Positions 493-32,351 of a stretch of 45,013 nucleotides of DNA are shown here, one piece after another. The stretch is taken from NCBI RefSeq assembly GCF_019683595.1, contig NZ_JADGHZ010000011.1:1-45013 (forward strand), written 5' to 3'. Position numbers and translations under genes: made by a program. Source of the DNA: Sphaerobacter sp. GTDB lineage: Bacteria; Chloroflexota; Chloroflexia; Thermomicrobiales; Thermomicrobiaceae. How positions within the stretch are numbered: position 1 is the stretch's first letter; the number at the start of each line of letters is the position of its first letter. The notes under the pieces are model-generated. The model searched no databases, was not told the DNA's origin, and worked only from the letters and a program-made list of their open reading frames with translations.

Positions 493-3381
493 TCAGTCGC
501 CTGGGTCGATCACGGTCTCGTCGGCGGCGATGTCGTCGTCGACCGATCCGGACATCGACTGCGAAAGCGGCAGGAAGCCGATCGCAAGCGACTGCTCGAC
601 GATGTCGCGCTTGACCAGCGCCTCGGCTCGCTGCAGCACGTCGCGCAGCGGGTGCTCGGGCATGGCGTGGGCGAGCATCTCCCGGACCTGTCGCATCAGG
701 TCGAGCGTCTTGTTGAAGGTGAGCACGAGGTCGCCCTCGCTGAGCTCGATCTGCTCCAGGATGCGCGAGACCGTGGCGCCATGGCACCAGGCGCGAACCG
801 CTCCGTAAAAGCCGTCGTTGTGACCGGTCGTGATGAAGAGGTTGTTCTGGCGCTCGGCCATCAGGATCTCGCGCTCGAGGTCGTCCAGGCGGCGCCGGAG
901 CAGGACCAGGCGGTTCGGCAGCGAGTAGGTATTGGCGAAGCGGAAATCGCGGTCGTAGGCGAACCAGGAGAAGACCTCGGCGACGTCGGCCGGGTTGAGC
1001 TTGTCGAGGAAGCCGCGGTCGATCATCTCGCAAATGACCAGGCCGTTGGTGTCGAAGACGTTCGCGAGCGTGTCGGCCTTGGCTGTCGGGTAGCCGCGGT
1101 AGAGGTAGCCGAACCGGTGGAGCACGTCGCGGATGCCGCGGATGAGCCGGCGAACCCGCTCTTCCTCGTTGGTCAACTCGCGACCGAGATCGGCCTGAAG
1201 CGCTGCGCGTTCACGTTCGAGGTGCGCCACGCGCTTGAGGTTGTTCTGGTGCTCCTTGCGGCGCGGGCAGGTGTGGCACGGATGGTTGCGGCGCTCGGTG
1301 TTGATCGCCTGGAGCTGTTCGCGGTGGGCGCGTAGCTCCTGCTCCAGGCGGTTGCGCTCGGAAGCGAGCCGTGCCTCCTGCTGGGCGCGATGCTCGGCGA
1401 GCAGCGCGTCCAGGTCGGGAAGATCGAGGTCTCTGACCTGGCGCCAGATCTCGTCGAGGGCCGCCTGACCGATCAGCGGCCGAACATCCTCAACCGGCTC
1501 TTCGAGCTCAGTCAACTGGGAGGGCACCTCGACAGCCGGCTCTCCCGCCGCGAGGTAGTCGATCTGGCGGTACTCGGCGAGGAGTACCACCTCGTGGCCG
1601 GTGAGGAAGAGACCCACGCCGCCGCTCGCGGCGCGGCCGAGGTAGACGGCCCAGCCGCCTCGGCGGAGGTGAACGACGACCCCGGCCGGCAGTTCACGGA
1701 AAGCGCGGCGCAGGGCCTGCCGCCCCGGCTCGGGCCAGGGGCGCTGATCCAGGTTGAGCCGCAGCGCGTGCATATCGCGCTGGAGGCGCCGCTCGCGCCC
1801 ACGAAGGGCGTTTATCGTGGCGTTGAGACCGCGGTATTCGTCGAGGAGCTCGTCCCCGCCGTCGAGGCCGATGAGGCAGCCCTGGGGCACTGCCTCGATC
1901 TCGCGGCCCACGTCGATGATGAGGTCTTCGATCTCGCGTACCCGCCGCGCCGTCTGGAACTGCGAGAGGCTCTGCTGGAGCATGTGCCGCACGCGGCTGC
2001 CGTGGGGCGGGTCCCACAGGTTGAGGACCGTGTTGTAGCGGATGGCGAACGCGCTCCGCACCGGCTCGAGCTCGCCGGTGGCGATCTCCAGCATCTCGCG
2101 GAAGCTCATCCAGGGACTGTAGGGAACGACGACCGAGCCGCGCTCGTCCATGCCACGGCGACCTGCGCGCCCCGCCATCTGCTGGAACTCGTTCGGGGTG
2201 AGCGGGCGGCGACGACGGCCGTCCCACTTGGTCATCCGGCCGATGACCACGCTGCGGGCCGGCATGTTGACGCCGAGGGCCAGGGTGTCCGTGGCGAAGA
2301 CGACCTGCATCAATCCCCGGCTGAAGAGCACCTCGACGAGCTGCTTCAGGATCGGCAAGAGCCCGGCGTGGTGAAAGCCGATCCCGAGCTGCGCCAGCGA
2401 TGCGATTTGCTGGACCTGCGCCAGCTCGCGGTCCTCCAGGCGCATCTGGCTGAGATAGTTCTCGACGACCGTGTTGATCTCCTGCCGGATCTTGTCGTCC
2501 TTGACGAGGTTCGGGCGCATCAAGGCGAAGCGCTGGGCATAGTCCTCGCAGTCACGCCGGCTGAAGAGGAAGTAGATCGCCGGAAGCATGTCCTCGGCCT
2601 GGAGCGCCCGGATGATCTCCCAGGGCGGCGGTTCGGCTTGTTCGGCCTGACGCCGCTGCTCAGAGGAGAGCCCCCCGCGCATCATCTGCCGCCGCACCTC
2701 GCCGCCGGTGTTGGGGAAGTCCGCCACCTGACGCCCGTGCTCGTCGATGACCAGATGCAACTTCTTGTCGAGGAAGTAGTAGAGCGAGAGCGGCACCGCG
2801 CGCTCGTAGTGGGTCACCAGGTGGATCGGGCGGTGGGTGCGGCTGATCCACTGGGCGATCTCGTCGGCGTTGGAGACGGTGGCGGAGAGGCAGATGAGCT
2901 GAATGTGCTCCGGGCAGAGGATGATCGCCTCTTCCCAGGTGGTGCCCCGTTCCGGGTCGGCGATGTAGTGGACCTCGTCGAAGATGATGCAGTCGACCGC
3001 GTCGAGCTCCCACGGGGTCTGCAGCAGCATGTTGCGCAGGACCTCGGTCGTCATCACAACGATCGGCGCGTCGGCGTTCTCGGTGATGTCGCCGGTGAGC
3101 AGCCCGACGTTGTCGCCGTAGATCACCCGGAGGTCGCGGAACTTCTGGTTGCTGAGCGCCTTGATGGGCGTGGTGTACATCACCCGGCCGCCGCGGCGGA
3201 ACGCCTCGTAGACACCGAACTCCGCCACGACCGTCTTGCCGGTGCCGGTCGGGGCGGCGACCATCACGGAGTCGCCGGCCAGGAAGGTCTCGATGGCCTC
3301 GCGCTGGAAGGGGTCGAGCGTAAACGGGTAGAAGACGGAGAACTGCTCGATGATGGCGTCGACGTCGCTGGTTTGATGCAT
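493..3381 (-). CDS. DEAD/DEAH-box superfamily II helicase, Ski2/Mtr4/HelY-like
   Basis: Walker A APTGTGKT, DEVH box (IIFDEVHYIADPERGTTWEE), SAT motif (LSATVSNADEI), QMAGRAGRRG motif VI. Start placed at internal MHQTSDVD (3381); the ORF is open to 3441. Confidence 0.9.
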   Translation of the reverse strand: MHQTSDVDAIIEQFSVFYPFTLDPFQREAIETFLAGDSVMVAAPTGTGKTVVAEFGVYEAFRRGGRVMYTTPIKALSNQKFRDLRVIYGDNVGLLTGDITENADAPIVVMTTEVLRNMLLQTPWELDAVDCIIFDEVHYIADPERGTTWEEAIILCPEHIQLICLSATVSNADEIAQWISRTHRPIHLVTHYERAVPLSLYYFLDKKLHLVIDEHGRQVADFPNTGGEVRRQMMRGGLSSEQRRQAEQAEPPPWEIIRALQAEDMLPAIYFLFSRRDCEDYAQRFALMRPNLVKDDKIRQEINTVVENYLSQMRLEDRELAQVQQIASLAQLGIGFHHAGLLPILKQLVEVLFSRGLMQVVFATDTLALGVNMPARSVVIGRMTKWDGRRRRPLTPNEFQQMAGRAGRRGMDERGSVVVPYSPWMSFREMLEIATGELEPVRSAFAIRYNTVLNLWDPPHGSRVRHMLQQSLSQFQTARRVREIEDLIIDVGREIEAVPQGCLIGLDGGDELLDEYRGLNATINALRGRERRLQRDMHALRLNLDQRPWPEPGRQALRRAFRELPAGVVVHLRRGGWAVYLGRAASGGVGLFLTGHEVVLLAEYRQIDYLAAGEPAVEVPSQLTELEEPVEDVRPLIGQAALDEIWRQVRDLDLPDLDALLAEHRAQQEARLASERNRLEQELRAHREQLQAINTERRNHPCHTCPRRKEHQNNLKRVAHLERERAALQADLGRELTNEEERVRRLIRGIRDVLHRFGYLYRGYPTAKADTLANVFDTNGLVICEMIDRGFLDKLNPADVAEVFSWFAYDRDFRFANTYSLPNRLVLLRRRLDDLEREILMAERQNNLFITTGHNDGFYGAVRAWCHGATVSRILEQIELSEGDLVLTFNKTLDLMRQVREMLAHAMPEHPLRDVLQRAEALVKRDIVEQSLAIGFLPLSQSMSGSVDDDIAADETVIDPGD

Positions 3382-23031: not shown

Positions 23032-24090
23032 CTAGGAGAGGACCTCGTCCTCGGCCAGCTCCTCGGCTTCGGCGGATGCGCCGTCGTAGTTGATGCGGGA
23101 ACGCAGCTCCGGCGAGGCGGCCCGGATCTGCTGCTCGATGTCCCGCATGATGTCCGGGTTCGCCTTCAGGAACTCCTTGACGTTCTCACGGCCCTGGCCG
23201 AGTCGCTCCTCGCCCAGGTAGAACCAGGCGCCCGACTTCCGGATGATGCCGAGGTCGGTCCCGACGTCGATGATGCTGCCGATGGCCGAGATGCCCTCGT
23301 TGTACATGATGTCGAACTCGGCCTGGCGGAACGGGGGCGCGACCTTGTTCTTGACGACGCGGACCCGCGCCCGGATACCGATGCTCTCCTGACCCTGCTT
23401 GATCGTCTCGATCCGCCGGATGTCGAGCCGGACCGACGAATAGAACTTCAGCGCATTCCCGCCGGTCGTCGTCTCCGGGTTGCCGAACATCACGCCGATC
23501 TTCATCCGGAGCTGGTTGATGAAGATGACGGCGGTGCGCGACCGGCTGATGGCGCCGGTGAGCTTGCGCAGCGCCTGGCTCATGAGCCGAGCCTGCAGGC
23601 CGACGTGAGCGTCACCCATATCGCCGTCGATCTCCGCGCGCGGGACCAGGGCGGCGACCGAGTCGATGACGATCACGTCGAGGGCGCCGCTGCGCACCAG
23701 CGTCTCGCAGATCTCCAGCGCCTGCTCGCCGGTGTCGGGCTGAGAGATCAGGAGATCGTCGAGCTTGATGCCGCAGCGCTCGGCGTAGACCGGGTCGAAG
23801 GCATGCTCGGCGTCGATGTAGGCGGCGACACCACCCAGCTTTTGCGCCTCGGCGATGATGTGCTGTGCCAGCGTCGTCTTCCCGCTCGACTCTGGGCCAT
23901 AGATCTCGGTGATGCGGCCGCGCGGGATACCGCCGACTCCCAGCGCGAGGTCGAGGGCGATCGAGCCGGTCGGGATGGCCTCAATTTGGAGGCGCGATTC
24001 TGCCTCGCCCATGCGCATGATCGACCCCTTGCCGAACTGGCGCTCGATCTGCGCCATGGCGAGTTCAATCGCTCGGTCTCGTTCGGACAT
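23032..24090 (-). CDS. recA: Recombinase RecA
   Basis: [122 protein letters not shown]. Start at 24090 preferred over 24132 because of the SD-like aagagagg. Confidence 0.97.
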
Positions 24091-24134
24091 TCGCCGCTGC
24101 CTCTCTTCTGCGTCGGACTGTGTGCTCGCCATCC

Positions 24135-24150
24135 TAGAAAAAATGTTCTA
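24135..24150 (-). promoter_or_regulatory. SOS/LexA-like operator of recA (TAGAACATTTTTTCTA in the recA orientation)
   Basis: Inverted TAGAA...TTCTA, 11 nt downstream of the recA -10; matches the sequence before the DUF1998 helicase at 13/16 positions. Confidence 0.6.
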
Positions 24151-24161
24151 TTCCGGCCCTA

Positions 24162-24191
24162 ATCATACGAAACCGAAGGGACTCGCGTCAA
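24162..24191 (-). promoter_or_regulatory. recA promoter TTGACG-18-TATGAT
   Basis: Minus strand: -35 at 24186-24191, -10 at 24162-24167, 18-nt spacer. Confidence 0.65.
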
Positions 24192-27269: not shown

Positions 27270-28009
27270 GACTCGCTCCCGCTTCGCCGCCGGAGCGCGG
27301 TGACCATCGCCACCCCTACAGCGGCTATCAGCAGCGCGCCGAAGGCCAGGTAGGACGTGGGCATCGACCCGTCGTCGTCCGGTGCTCCTGTGCGTGCGGT
27401 GACCTTGCCGCTCGGGTCCACCTCGACGGCCAGCACCGCCGGTGCGGCGCCGTCGCCACCCTGGCGGTCCGCGCCGGTGAGGCGAGCGATCTCGTCGAGC
27501 GTGATGGCTGGCAACTGGGGATCGTCCGCTGCCCAGGACCACCCATCCACATCGCGGTCGCGGACGACGCGGTTGTCCGGGCCGTTCATCTCGACGTTCC
27601 AATTGCCGTCCGGCGTCAGGCTGAGGTACTGCCAGTAGTTGGATGGGTTCTCGTCGCTGTGGCAGAAGCAATCGTCGGAGGGACAGCCCTCGCCGTCGAG
27701 TGAGCAGATGGCCGTGCCGAGCCCGCTGAAGGCGGTGACCTCCGTAGCCAGCCCGGATCGGTTCAGCAGCTCCGTACCAGTGATCTCCGGCTCGGTGAAC
27801 TCGACGTAGACGTAAACCAGGCGGCCATCGCCGTGGCGGACCACCAGTCCCGCCGCGTTGGTGTCGGCGGCTCGGGCGCTGGGGGAGAACGTGAGTGCGG
27901 CGAGTAGGGCGAGCGCCGCCAGCGCGCCGAACACGCGGGTCGCAAGCAACACAGCCGGGCGTCCCGACCCGGAGCGGCCGGGAGGCAGAATGGTGTCGTT
28001 CTTCATCAC
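27266..28009 (-). CDS. Membrane-anchored DUF4430-like (transcobalamin C-terminal-like) protein
   Basis: N-terminal signal/TM, extracellular AGLVVRHGDGRLVYVYVEFTEPEITGTELLNRSGL...SNYWQYLSLTPDGNWNVEMNGPDNRVVRDRDVDGWSWAADD, C-terminal TM SYLAFGALLIAAVGVAMVTALRRR. The YW-x-W-x-V-x-DGD-x-x-GWSW pattern is DUF4430-like. Confidence 0.7.
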   Translation of the reverse strand: MMKNDTILPPGRSGSGRPAVLLATRVFGALAALALLAALTFSPSARAADTNAAGLVVRHGDGRLVYVYVEFTEPEITGTELLNRSGLATEVTAFSGLGTAICSLDGEGCPSDDCFCHSDENPSNYWQYLSLTPDGNWNVEMNGPDNRVVRDRDVDGWSWAADDPQLPAITLDEIARLTGADRQGGDGAAPAVLAVEVDPSGKVTARTGAPDDDGSMPTSYLAFGALLIAAVGVAMVTALRRRSGSES

Positions 28010-29529
28010 TTCACCTCACGGGAGTGGGTCAGCAGCTCGTCACCCAGTCGCCCGACCAGAACGTCGTAGTGCGACCACGCGGTCCCTGGGTGCCACTCCA
28101 GCCGCGCCCGCTCGAAATACTGAACTGTGCGTCCGTTTTCGACGATTTCCTCGCTGATGGGATAGCCGTAGACCGAGAGCGCGCCGTAGCGCTGCCAGTA
28201 CTCGTTGAACCCGCCACAGAGGTTGTGGTGGGTCTGGGGGAAGTAGAGGCAGTCCGGTCGCTGGATCGGCTCGGCGGGAGCGAAGGACGGCGACCCGGCA
28301 CGGTCGGCCGCTTGCTCGGCGCCGATACGCCCGAGCAGCACGTCGAAGCGCTCCGGAGCCATACCGGGATACCACTCGAAGCGGGCGCGCTCGAAGTACT
28401 GGACCGTCCGGCCGTTTTCGACGAACTCCTCGGTGAGTGGATAGCCGTAGACGGCCAGACCGCCGTACGCGAGCCAGTACGAGAGGAACCCCGCGCATAG
28501 GTTGTGGCCCGTCGCCGCGTAGTAGGCACAACCCTCCTTGGGCGAGGCCGGCTGCATCGCGCGCTCCATGGCAGTGCGGCGCCCGAAATCCGGGCGCGCG
28601 GGTATCGGGAGCGGTTGGAGGGCCAGCGCCGGGACTGCCTGTGCCGTGGCGAGCAGGCTGTCGCTGGGCACGTCGTCCCGGGCCCGCAGCGCGCCGCTGT
28701 CGTTCTGCAGGCGCTCCAGCGCGGCGATTCCGGCCGCCACCGTGTCCGACGTGGCGCGCTCTCCCGCCGCGAGCATCGCCTGGGTTGCCAGCGCCGTCGA
28801 GGTCGCATCACCCACGGCCGGAACGTCGGCGCCGACCTGGGAGACGAATGAACCGTCGTCGGTCTGCGCAGCCAGGAGGTAGCCGATGCCGCGATCGACC
28901 GCGGTGGAGCCCCGTTTCCCGGCCGCGACAAGCGCCTGGATCGCGAGAGCCGTCGCGCGGCTGTCGCTCCGGCGAGCGGGTTGCTGTTGACCCGAGGACC
29001 AGCCGCCATCCATAGCCTGGGCCGCGATCAGCGCGTCGACCGCGGCGGCCGGGACCGGTTCCCGTGCAGCCTCCAGCGCCAGGATGGCAAAGGCATGGTT
29101 CGCAGGCTGCGGGTCGAACAGGCCGGTGGTCTGGTCCAGGTGCGCCAAGATGCGCGCGAGCAGGTCCACCCTGCCGAAGTCCCGCGGATTGACACCGCTG
29201 GCGACCGCAACCGGCGTCAACTTCGCGGCACCGACCACGGTACCGGCGTAGTCGCCGGCAGTGGTGCGCAGGTAGTCGATGATCGACGGACCGCCCGCAG
29301 CCACGAGGTCCGGGTCGATCCCGGACGCGGCGAAGGCGAGGGCGGCGTCGGCGGTGATCCCCGGCTCGCTGGCACCCGTCGCTCCGGCAAACCCGCCATC
29401 CGGCTGCTGCTGGGAACGCAGCCAGTCAACCGCGCGGGTCAACTCCGGGTTGGGGCTCCCGCGCGCGGCAGGCGCCATAACGAGCCAGAGCAGGCTCGCC
29501 AGCACCAGGGTCGTGATCGTTCGCTGCAT
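28006..29529 (-). CDS. Secreted alpha/alpha-toroid (prenyltransferase/squalene-cyclase/transcobalamin-like) protein with two C-terminal repeats
   Basis: Signal peptide (LVLASLLWLVMAPAARGS); repeats AVDWLRSQQQPDGGFAGATG, NHAFAILALEAAREPVPAAAVDALIAAQAMDGGWSSG, ATALAIQALVAAGKRGSTAVDRGIGYLLAAQTDDGSFVS; then two tandem repeats of about 73 aa. Confidence 0.8.
   Translation of the reverse strand: MQRTITTLVLASLLWLVMAPAARGSPNPELTRAVDWLRSQQQPDGGFAGATGASEPGITADAALAFAASGIDPDLVAAGGPSIIDYLRTTAGDYAGTVVGAAKLTPVAVASGVNPRDFGRVDLLARILAHLDQTTGLFDPQPANHAFAILALEAAREPVPAAAVDALIAAQAMDGGWSSGQQQPARRSDSRATALAIQALVAAGKRGSTAVDRGIGYLLAAQTDDGSFVSQVGADVPAVGDATSTALATQAMLAAGERATSDTVAAGIAALERLQNDSGALRARDDVPSDSLLATAQAVPALALQPLPIPARPDFGRRTAMERAMQPASPKEGCAYYAATGHNLCAGFLSYWLAYGGLAVYGYPLTEEFVENGRTVQYFERARFEWYPGMAPERFDVLLGRIGAEQAADRAGSPSFAPAEPIQRPDCLYFPQTHHNLCGGFNEYWQRYGALSVYGYPISEEIVENGRTVQYFERARLEWHPGTAWSHYDVLVGRLGDELLTHSREVK
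28033..28251 (-). repeat. Protein-coding repeat copy 2 (CLYFPQTHHNLCGGFNEYWQRYGALSVYGYPISEEIVENGRTVQYFERARLEWHPG...LVGRLGDE)
   Basis: Direct comparison with copy 1 at 28310-28528; boundaries approximate. Confidence 0.8.
28310..28528 (-). repeat. Protein-coding repeat copy 1 (CAYYAATGHNLCAGFLSYWLAYGGLAVYGYPLTEEFVENGRTVQYFERARFEWYPG...LLGRIGAE)
   Basis: Same domain repeated downstream at 28033-28251; boundaries approximate. Confidence 0.8.
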
Positions 29530-29634: not shown

Positions 29635-29673
29635 CTTGGTGTCCTCCCTCCTTGGCTCGAGGCGGTTCGGACA

Positions 29674-29798
29674 CGGCAGCGGCGGGTAATCTGGCTTCGC
29701 CGCGCCTCGGCGCGGCGTCACAGTTGCGGCACAGCCCCGGACTTGCACCGGTGTTCCCCCGGGTGGACCGGCCGCGCTTCGGCCGGTACCCGCTGCCG
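29674..29798 (-). promoter_or_regulatory. Cobalamin (adenosylcobalamin/B12) riboswitch
   Basis: Minus strand reads ...GGGGGAACACCGGTGCAAGTCCGGGGCTGTGCCGCAACTGTGACGCC...GAAGCCAGATTACCCGCCGCTGCCG, containing the B12-box and conserved core; closing stem cggcag/ctgccg. Confidence 0.94.
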
Positions 29799-29810
29799 TA
29801 GGGGATACTC

Positions 29811-29946: not shown

Positions 29947-29952
29947 TATAAT
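29947..29952 (+). promoter_or_regulatory. -10 element TATAAT for the DUF1998-type helicase gene
   Basis: Exact TATAAT; no good -35 identified. Confidence 0.5.
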
Positions 29953-29963
29953 CGCGGCGAGAA

Positions 29964-29979
29964 TAGAAAACATGTTCGT
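29964..29979 (+). promoter_or_regulatory. SOS/LexA-like operator (TAGAAAACATGTTCGT) before the DUF1998-type helicase gene
   Basis: 13/16 identical to TAGAAAAAATGTTCTA at recA; 11 nt downstream of the -10, as at recA. Confidence 0.55.
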
Positions 29980-30020: not shown

Positions 30021-32351
30021 GTGCAGCAGGAGAGCGGGCTGGAAGCCGTCATCAAGCGGTTGCGGTTCGAATCGCGGTTCGCCGAATGTCTCACGGCCTG
30101 GCGAACGATCCCCGAACGCCCGGCGGAGATGGTACCGCTTCCGGAGGATCTGGAACCCCGCCTCGTCGCGGCGCTGCGCGCGCGGGGAATCGAGCAGCTC
30201 TATTCCCACCAGGCTGAGGCGTTTGCCAGCGTGCGTCAGGGGCGGCATACCGCCGTGGTCACCGGGACGGCCTCGGGCAAGACGCTGTGCTACACGCTGC
30301 CGGTGCTCGACGCGATCCTGCGGGACGCGACGGCGCGTGCGCTTTACCTCTTCCCGACCAAGGCCCTCGCCCAGGACCAATACGCCAACCTCCACGCGCT
30401 GATCGAGGCCGCCGGAGCGGACATCAAGACCCACACCTACGACGGCGACACCCCGGCGAACATCCGGCGGATCATCCGCACGGCGGGCCACGTGGTCATC
30501 ACCAACCCCGACATGCTGCACTCCGGCATCCTGCCGCACCACACCAAGTGGCACAACCTCTTCGAGAACCTGCGATTTGTGGTGATCGACGAGATGCACG
30601 GCTACCGGGGTGTCTTCGGCTCGCACGTGGCCAACGTGATCCGGCGGCTGAAGCGCATCTGCCAGCACTACGGGTCAAGTCCGGTCTTCATCCTGGCGTC
30701 GGCGACGATCGCCAATCCGGAGGAGCTGGCGCGGCGGCTGATCGAGGAGGAGGTGCACGTCATCGATCGAGACGGTGCACCGCACGGTCCGCGGCACTTC
30801 GCCTTTTTCAACCCGCCGGTGGTGAACCAGCAGTTAGGCATCCGGCGGTCGGTCGTGCTCGAGGCGACGCGAATTGCCAGCGAGCTGGTGCGGGCTGGGG
30901 TCCCCACCATCGTCTTCGCCAGGGCGCGAGTGACGGCGGAGGTGTTGCTGACCTACCTGCGCCAGGCGCTGCCACCGGGGATCCGTAGCGAAGAGAGCGT
31001 GCGGGGCTACCGTGGCGGCTACCTGCCGCGTCAGCGGCGCGAGATCGAACGCGGCCTGCGGGAGGGGCGGGTCCGCGCCGTGGTGTCGACCAACGCACTC
31101 GAGCTGGGGGTCGACATCGGCTCGCTGGATGCCTGCGTCATGACCGGGTACCCCGGCACGGTGGCGAGCACCTGGCAGCAGGCCGGGCGCGCCGGGCGAC
31201 GCGATGGGCCGTCGCTGGCGGTGTTGGTCGCGTCGTCCAACCCATTGGACCAGTTCATCGTGCAGAACCCGAACTACTTCTTCGAGCGCCCGCCCGAGCA
31301 TGGGTTGATCAACCCGGACAACCTGCTGGTGCTGGTGGACCACCTCAAGTGCGCCGCGTTCGAGTTGCCGTTCAAGGACGGCCAGCAGTTTGGAACCGTT
31401 GACCCGACGGAGGTGCTGGAGTACCTCGAGGAGGAGCGGGTGCTCCACCACGCGGGCGATACCTGGTACTGGACGGCCGACACCTACCCCGCTGAAGAAG
31501 TGAGCCTACGCACGGCTGCGCGCGACAACGTCGTCATCATCGACACCGGGGAGCCGGGCAAGCCGCGGGTGATCGGCGAGGTCGACAGCTTCGCGGCGCC
31601 GATGCTTGTCCACACGGACGCCATCTACCTGCACGAGGGACAGCAGTATCACGTCGACCGCCTCGACTGGGACGAGAAGAAGGCCTACGTCCACCCCGTC
31701 GACGTGGACTACTACACCGACGCGAGCCTGTCGGTCCGGGTGCAGGTCATCGAGCAGTTCTCAGAGGGCGAGCCCTGGGCCGAGCGACACCACGGCGAGG
31801 TGCTGGTCGGCGCCATCGTGACCCAGTACAAGAAGATCAAGCTGTACACCCATGAGAACATCGGCTGGGGCCGGGTCCACCTGCCCGAACAGCAGATGCA
31901 CACCTCTGCCTACTGGTTCTCGCTACCGGAGCACTGGACCCGGCGCATGCGCTCGGCCGACCTCCAAGGCGCGTTGATCGGCCTGGCGAACGTGATCGGG
32001 AACGTCGCGCCGCTCTTCCTCATGTGCGACCCGCGCGACATCGGTGTTTACCCGCAGGTGCGCTCGCCCTTCACGCAGCGGTCGACCATCTTCGTCTACG
32101 ACCAGATCCCCGGCGGAATCGGCTTCAGCCAGAAGCTCTACGACCTGCATCATGAACTGCTCAGGGCAGCCTACGACCTGGTGCGTGCCTGCGGTTGCCC
32201 ATCGGGCTGCCCGTCGTGTGTCGGGCCGATGACGGAGGTCGGAGCTTCCGGAAAGGCCAACACGATGGCGCTCCTCCGCGTCATGCGCGATACGCCGTCC
32301 AGCGCCAACGGGCGCGGGCGTGGCATCGAGCACACGGGCGACTACCAGTAG
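30021..32351 (+). CDS. DEAD/DEAH-box helicase with C-terminal DUF1998 Zn-binding region (MrfA/YprA-like)
   Basis: VTGTASGKTLCYTLPVLDAIL, VVIDEMHGYRGVFGSHVANVIRRLKRI, LASATIANPEELA, QQAGRAGRRDGPSLAVLVASSNPLDQF, C-terminal QIPGGIGFSQKLYDL...CGCPSGCPSCVGP. Confidence 0.93.
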   Translation: MQQESGLEAVIKRLRFESRFAECLTAWRTIPERPAEMVPLPEDLEPRLVAALRARGIEQLYSHQAEAFASVRQGRHTAVVTGTASGKTLCYTLPVLDAILRDATARALYLFPTKALAQDQYANLHALIEAAGADIKTHTYDGDTPANIRRIIRTAGHVVITNPDMLHSGILPHHTKWHNLFENLRFVVIDEMHGYRGVFGSHVANVIRRLKRICQHYGSSPVFILASATIANPEELARRLIEEEVHVIDRDGAPHGPRHFAFFNPPVVNQQLGIRRSVVLEATRIASELVRAGVPTIVFARARVTAEVLLTYLRQALPPGIRSEESVRGYRGGYLPRQRREIERGLREGRVRAVVSTNALELGVDIGSLDACVMTGYPGTVASTWQQAGRAGRRDGPSLAVLVASSNPLDQFIVQNPNYFFERPPEHGLINPDNLLVLVDHLKCAAFELPFKDGQQFGTVDPTEVLEYLEEERVLHHAGDTWYWTADTYPAEEVSLRTAARDNVVIIDTGEPGKPRVIGEVDSFAAPMLVHTDAIYLHEGQQYHVDRLDWDEKKAYVHPVDVDYYTDASLSVRVQVIEQFSEGEPWAERHHGEVLVGAIVTQYKKIKLYTHENIGWGRVHLPEQQMHTSAYWFSLPEHWTRRMRSADLQGALIGLANVIGNVAPLFLMCDPRDIGVYPQVRSPFTQRSTIFVYDQIPGGIGFSQKLYDLHHELLRAAYDLVRACGCPSGCPSCVGPMTEVGASGKANTMALLRVMRDTPSSANGRGRGIEHTGDYQ

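Follow-up and report, generated by a model that had tools for sequence, protein, structure and literature searches.

Two promoters in the analysed window, a 45,013-nt stretch of DNA from Sphaerobacter sp., carry closely matching sites just downstream of the -10 element: that of recA and that of mrfA, a helicase gene. These sites are almost certainly SOS boxes, as judged from their sequence and conservation, and mrfA is probably a widespread member of the SOS regulon. Together, the sites themselves, their geometry, the box found at lexA, conservation among relatives, the orthology of LexA and MrfA, and the association between lexA and mrfA boxes across genomes make it highly probable that both serve LexA as operators in a standard SOS regulon. 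The features concerned are as follows.

23032..24132, minus strand: recA, longest frame (Pfam RecA, E 7e-140).
24135..24150: putative LexA operator of recA, TAGAAAAAATGTTCTA on the plus strand and TAGAACATTTTTTCTA on the recA strand (direct reading, pattern, matrix, conservation).
24162..24167, minus strand: recA -10 hexamer TATGAT, 11 nt upstream of the operator.
24186..24191, minus strand: recA -35 hexamer TTGACG, separated from the -10 by an 18-nt spacer.
29947..29952, plus strand: mrfA -10 hexamer TATAAT, 11 nt upstream of the operator.
29964..29979, plus-strand reading: putative LexA operator of mrfA, TAGAAAACATGTTCGT (direct reading, pattern, matrix, conservation in relatives and other phyla).
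30021..32351, plus strand: mrfA, SF2 helicase with WHD_HRQ1 and MZB (formerly DUF1998) domains (Pfam).

A sequence-only reading of this DNA had proposed that recA and the helicase share an operator at identical spacing from the -10. Both distances are indeed 11 nt, and the 16-mers at 24135-24150 and 29964-29979 are identical at 13 of 16 positions. The recA promoter it described, TTGACG-18-TATGAT followed by 11 nt, can likewise be read directly on the minus strand; no good -35 was seen upstream of the mrfA TATAAT. In each box, one AGAAC half is changed to AGAAA. In each of the three genomes of the genus, recA and mrfA share one distance from the -10 to the box: 12 nt if counted to the AGAA core, or 11 nt to the T that precedes it. 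Elsewhere in the family the distance is usually 11-12 nt and falls to 8 in some members, with the -10 of more distant relatives picked by best match and less certain. Being located just downstream of the -10, the box covers the stretch that follows the likely start of transcription, where a bound protein would be expected to repress.

The recA site is conserved throughout the order: an upstream box with up to two mismatches is present in 30/30 loci (own genome and relatives). The window RecA is 99% identical to that of Sphaerobacter thermophilus DSM 20745. Its probable start codon is the ATG at 24090, because in most relatives the homology sets in only around residue 10-17 of the frame. The recA matches in five relatives (L057, L058, L060, L061 and L062) extend past an in-frame stop, probably an alignment continuing beyond the true C-terminus. 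The gene immediately upstream of recA, transcribed in the same direction, encodes a cyclic-di-AMP receptor (PF06153, 24205-24534, minus); the recA operator lies in between.

In Bacillus subtilis, MrfA and the exonuclease MrfB repair mitomycin adducts independently of UvrABC (PMC11194089); that work makes no mention of SOS control over mrfA. The window helicase combines a DEAD/Helicase_C core, a winged helix and an MZB zinc domain, and its residues 21-752 align with B. subtilis YprA/MrfA (PDB 6znp) at 919 bits. Judged by this full-length match, it is an ortholog of YprA/MrfA. The YprA-family helicases of defence systems (DISARM, Druantia, Dpd; PMC12458937) share the DEAD core and the MZB/DUF1998 domain, but the window gene matches the repair branch represented by B. 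subtilis YprA, and its annotated flanks hold no defence neighbours (the genes there are Fe-ADH, beta-lactamase fold and pyrimidine genes). A defence-system helicase was rejected on the full-length match to YprA. A cobalamin riboswitch (RF00174, 38 bits; 29664-29809, minus) was also detected in the window, upstream of a minus-strand prenyltransferase-fold gene (28006-29529) and CbiQ/ABC transporter genes.

As in the B. subtilis pathway (PMC11194089), the genome encodes both a full-length MrfA ortholog and an RNase_H_2 exonuclease of the MrfB type. In Priestia mrfB directly follows mrfA, whereas here the two are unlinked, with mrfB on contig C127 and mrfA on contig C180; this adjacency is therefore absent, although linkage does not define MrfA itself. 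No LexA box was found within the 7 kb surrounding mrfB, and a co-regulated mrfB was rejected for want of a site around the unlinked copy.

The mrfA site is the less regular of the two, and it is conceivable, though unlikely, that LexA acts at the recA site alone, the mrfA site being a weak or non-functional look-alike that constraint on the promoter sequence has preserved. Its one poor half, which varies within the genus (AGAAAA, AGAATA, AGAAAG), fits such an origin, as does its loss or weakening in several order-level relatives: there is no box at mrfA in L035 and L036 and none in the stretch examined of L032, and the sites of L033 and L034 are weak. Against this, the genus and its closest family members keep the downstream half TGTTCG but differ in the flanks, and mrfA boxes recur well beyond the order. 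We took 80 mrfA loci from named genomes, and 23/79 upstream regions fell within one mismatch of NGAACANNTGTTCN, compared with 0.38 expected. A matrix trained solely on the lexA and recA sites of the order, without mrfA sites, was then scored against other windows of the same loci, a control that corrects for differences in base composition. The mrfA upstream region ranked in the top 2% of windows at 4/6 loci of Thermomicrobia, 18/20 of other Chloroflexota, 18/31 of Bacillota and 3/3 Armatimonadota or unplaced loci; with the same matrix, none of the nine loci from KSB1, Calditrichota, Acidobacteria and Caldiseric genomes did so. Palindromic mrfA boxes occur in Dormibacterota, Dehalococcoidia, Armatimonadota and Bacillota; in Bacillaceae the box is mostly CGAAC-N4-ATTCG and lies some 40 nt from the start. 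Moreover, hardly any mrfA box was found in genomes without a clear lexA box, which also argues against a look-alike. A clear lexA box was absent from four checked genomes of the KSB1/Calditrichia/Acidobacteria/Caldiseric set (best score at the Caldiseric lexA, 8.6); the genomes of these groups lack both boxes and most others have both. Across 31 genomes the two boxes co-occur with a Fisher p of 0.03-0.06 depending on the threshold, in a sample that includes related genomes and with thresholds set after the scores were seen; this marginally significant association is supporting, not conclusive.

The genome contains a single lexA (TIGR00498, E 6e-53), whose product has a LexA_DNA_bind (HTH) domain and a Peptidase_S24 domain, with the Ala-Gly bond, the Ser and the Lys aligned with those of solved LexA proteins. 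Its promoter carries AGAACAGATGTTCG between TTGACA and TATAAT, 62 nt upstream of the frame used. Upstream of lexA, (A/C)GAACANNTGTTC(G/T) or a one-mismatch form is present at 30/30 loci of the order, own genome included. With the motif at lexA and in all 30 recA loci, the earlier suggestion that the operator is probably the SOS box of this lineage is supported at the sequence level. The same reading had described the box as close to AGAAC-N4-GTTCT and akin to the Gram-positive form CGAAC-N4-GTTCG. The kinship stands, but the separate form does not, because the outer position of the order's lexA operators is C or A, and a distinct AGAAC-N4-GTTCT motif class was rejected on that ground. GAAC-N4-GTTC, the LexA box of Bacillus and Mycobacterium (PMC3323433), is exact at lexA and has one half changed at the window recA and mrfA. 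By this comparison the box is the ordinary Gram-positive (Cheo-type) GAAC-N4-GTTC, with one half degraded at recA and mrfA, and not a new motif.

Binding of the dyads by some other repressor, damage-responsive or general, that shares the SOS targets appears very improbable: the box is located in the lexA promoter itself at 30/30 loci and matches the Gram-positive LexA box in sequence (PMC3323433). We also observed that the LexA recognition region reads SSTSVVDYNL in Thermomicrobia and Dehalococcoidia and SSSTVHxHL in Bacillaceae, Dormibacterota and Armatimonadota, and that both recognition-helix types go with the same GAAC-N4-GTTC operator at lexA. The LexA proteins of Calditrichia and KSB1 have different recognition-region sequences.

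Within the window, the pattern AGAAMANNTGTTCK with at most one mismatch occurs only at the recA and mrfA places, and shuffled sequences gave a mean of 0.09 matches, with 0/100 shuffles reaching the observed count. A matrix built from the relatives' lexA and recA operators placed the recA and mrfA sites first and second in the 45 kb, at 18.4 and 17.6 (next best, 12.2), the mrfA score alone being independent since the window recA box was among the training sites. On 200 random windows, the best score had a mean of 11.6, a 95th percentile of 16.0 and a maximum of 19.9. Chance similarity between two AT-rich promoter regions is scarcely credible: random windows of this composition sometimes hold one high-scoring site, as the maximum of 19.9 illustrates, but shuffles lead one to expect only 0.09 pattern matches, and both position and sequence are conserved in relatives.

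Similar boxes are spread over the genomes of the genus. With one mismatch allowed, the pattern gave 32 strand matches in this genome compared with 5 for the reversed control, 39 compared with 11 in the sister genome G001, and 27 compared with 0 in G002, palindromic sites being counted on both strands; these genome-level counts come from pattern searches, and the matrix scan was confined to the window and the loci. Boxes are located at lexA, recA, mrfA, a Y-family polymerase gene, ruvB and gyrB, and recur at orthologous loci in sister species. Further recurring sites include the intergenic region between an AlkZ-like glycosylase and a peptidase S58, a gene for a GGDEF protein, and others. The sequence-only reading had named lexA, uvr and imuB/dnaE2-type promoters as places where the motif should be sought. 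It is present in the promoters of lexA and of the Y-family polymerase gene; for uvr the support is weak, with a weaker conserved site, CGATCGTTTGTTCG, at uvrA but none found upstream of uvrB, which was rejected as a LexA target. This uvr result, like the changed half of each window box, speaks against the operator reading.

Several of the additional sites have features of their own. The gyrB box, CGAACATCAGTTCT (C177:4780-4793), lies 11 nt after a TATAAT, and the same box is found at the matching locus in the sister species. Another (C140:7298-7311) lies between dnaN and a divergent 202-codon gene that has its own TTGACA/TATCAT promoter; the 201-aa product matches solely phage families of unknown function. 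Two boxes 63 nt apart (C156:7251-7327), both kept in G001, precede a gene of the glyoxalase/bleomycin-resistance fold. In G001, at positions 3309 and 5963 of the stretch C1:2266000-2276000, one box precedes a DinB-like and another an ImuB-like Y-family polymerase gene; between the two lies a small gene for a sigma-factor-like protein of 228 aa.

From this arrangement we infer LexA occupancy, repression, induction by damage and a role in repair. A LexA dimer would bind the GAAC-N4-GTTC dyad just past the -10, at approximately +5 to +20 of the transcript, and would thereby block initiation at recA and mrfA. Upon DNA damage, RecA filaments would stimulate LexA self-cleavage at the Ala-Gly bond, and both genes would then be expressed, RecA acting in recombination and signalling and MrfA as a 3'-5' helicase in the repair of mitomycin-type adducts.

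The predicted regulon resembles the Gram-positive (Cheo-box) SOS regulon of Bacillus and Mycobacterium (PMC3323433) in its dyad and spacing, its autoregulated lexA, and the inclusion of recA and a Y-family polymerase. It differs in the LexA recognition region (ISSTSVVDYNL in Thermomicrobia, ASSSTVHGHL in Bacillaceae), in an outer position that may be A or C, in one half that is often degraded, and in its membership, since here gyrB, ruvB and mrfA carry boxes and uvrB has none. A comparative LexA study of 2012 considered only groups for which the LexA motif was well defined and at least two complete genomes existed, a selection that left Sphaerobacteraceae out. In the literature searched, a set with few subscription papers, on LexA in Sphaerobacter, Chloroflexi or Chloroflexota, and on mrfA, yprA or DUF1998 under LexA or SOS control, we found no report of these sites, no definition of a Sphaerobacteraceae LexA box and no mention of mrfA as an SOS member. 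RegPrecise 3.0 lists, at collection level, one set for Chloroflexi and one for LexA, and may already include a LexA motif for Chloroflexi. What may be new is the recurrence of mrfA among LexA targets in different phyla.

On balance, we lean towards the view that mrfA has long belonged to the LexA regulon and is widely shared among lineages whose LexA recognises the Gram-positive box, here Chloroflexota including Dormibacterota and Dehalococcoidia, Armatimonadota and many Bacillota. MrfA-type repair would then be an excision pathway that is SOS-inducible, not constitutive, and in Sphaerobacter it would be induced even though uvrB is not. For this lineage, the sites supply a motif and a first regulon list. 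More broadly, their distribution points to SOS control of the mitomycin repair helicase MrfA in several phyla.
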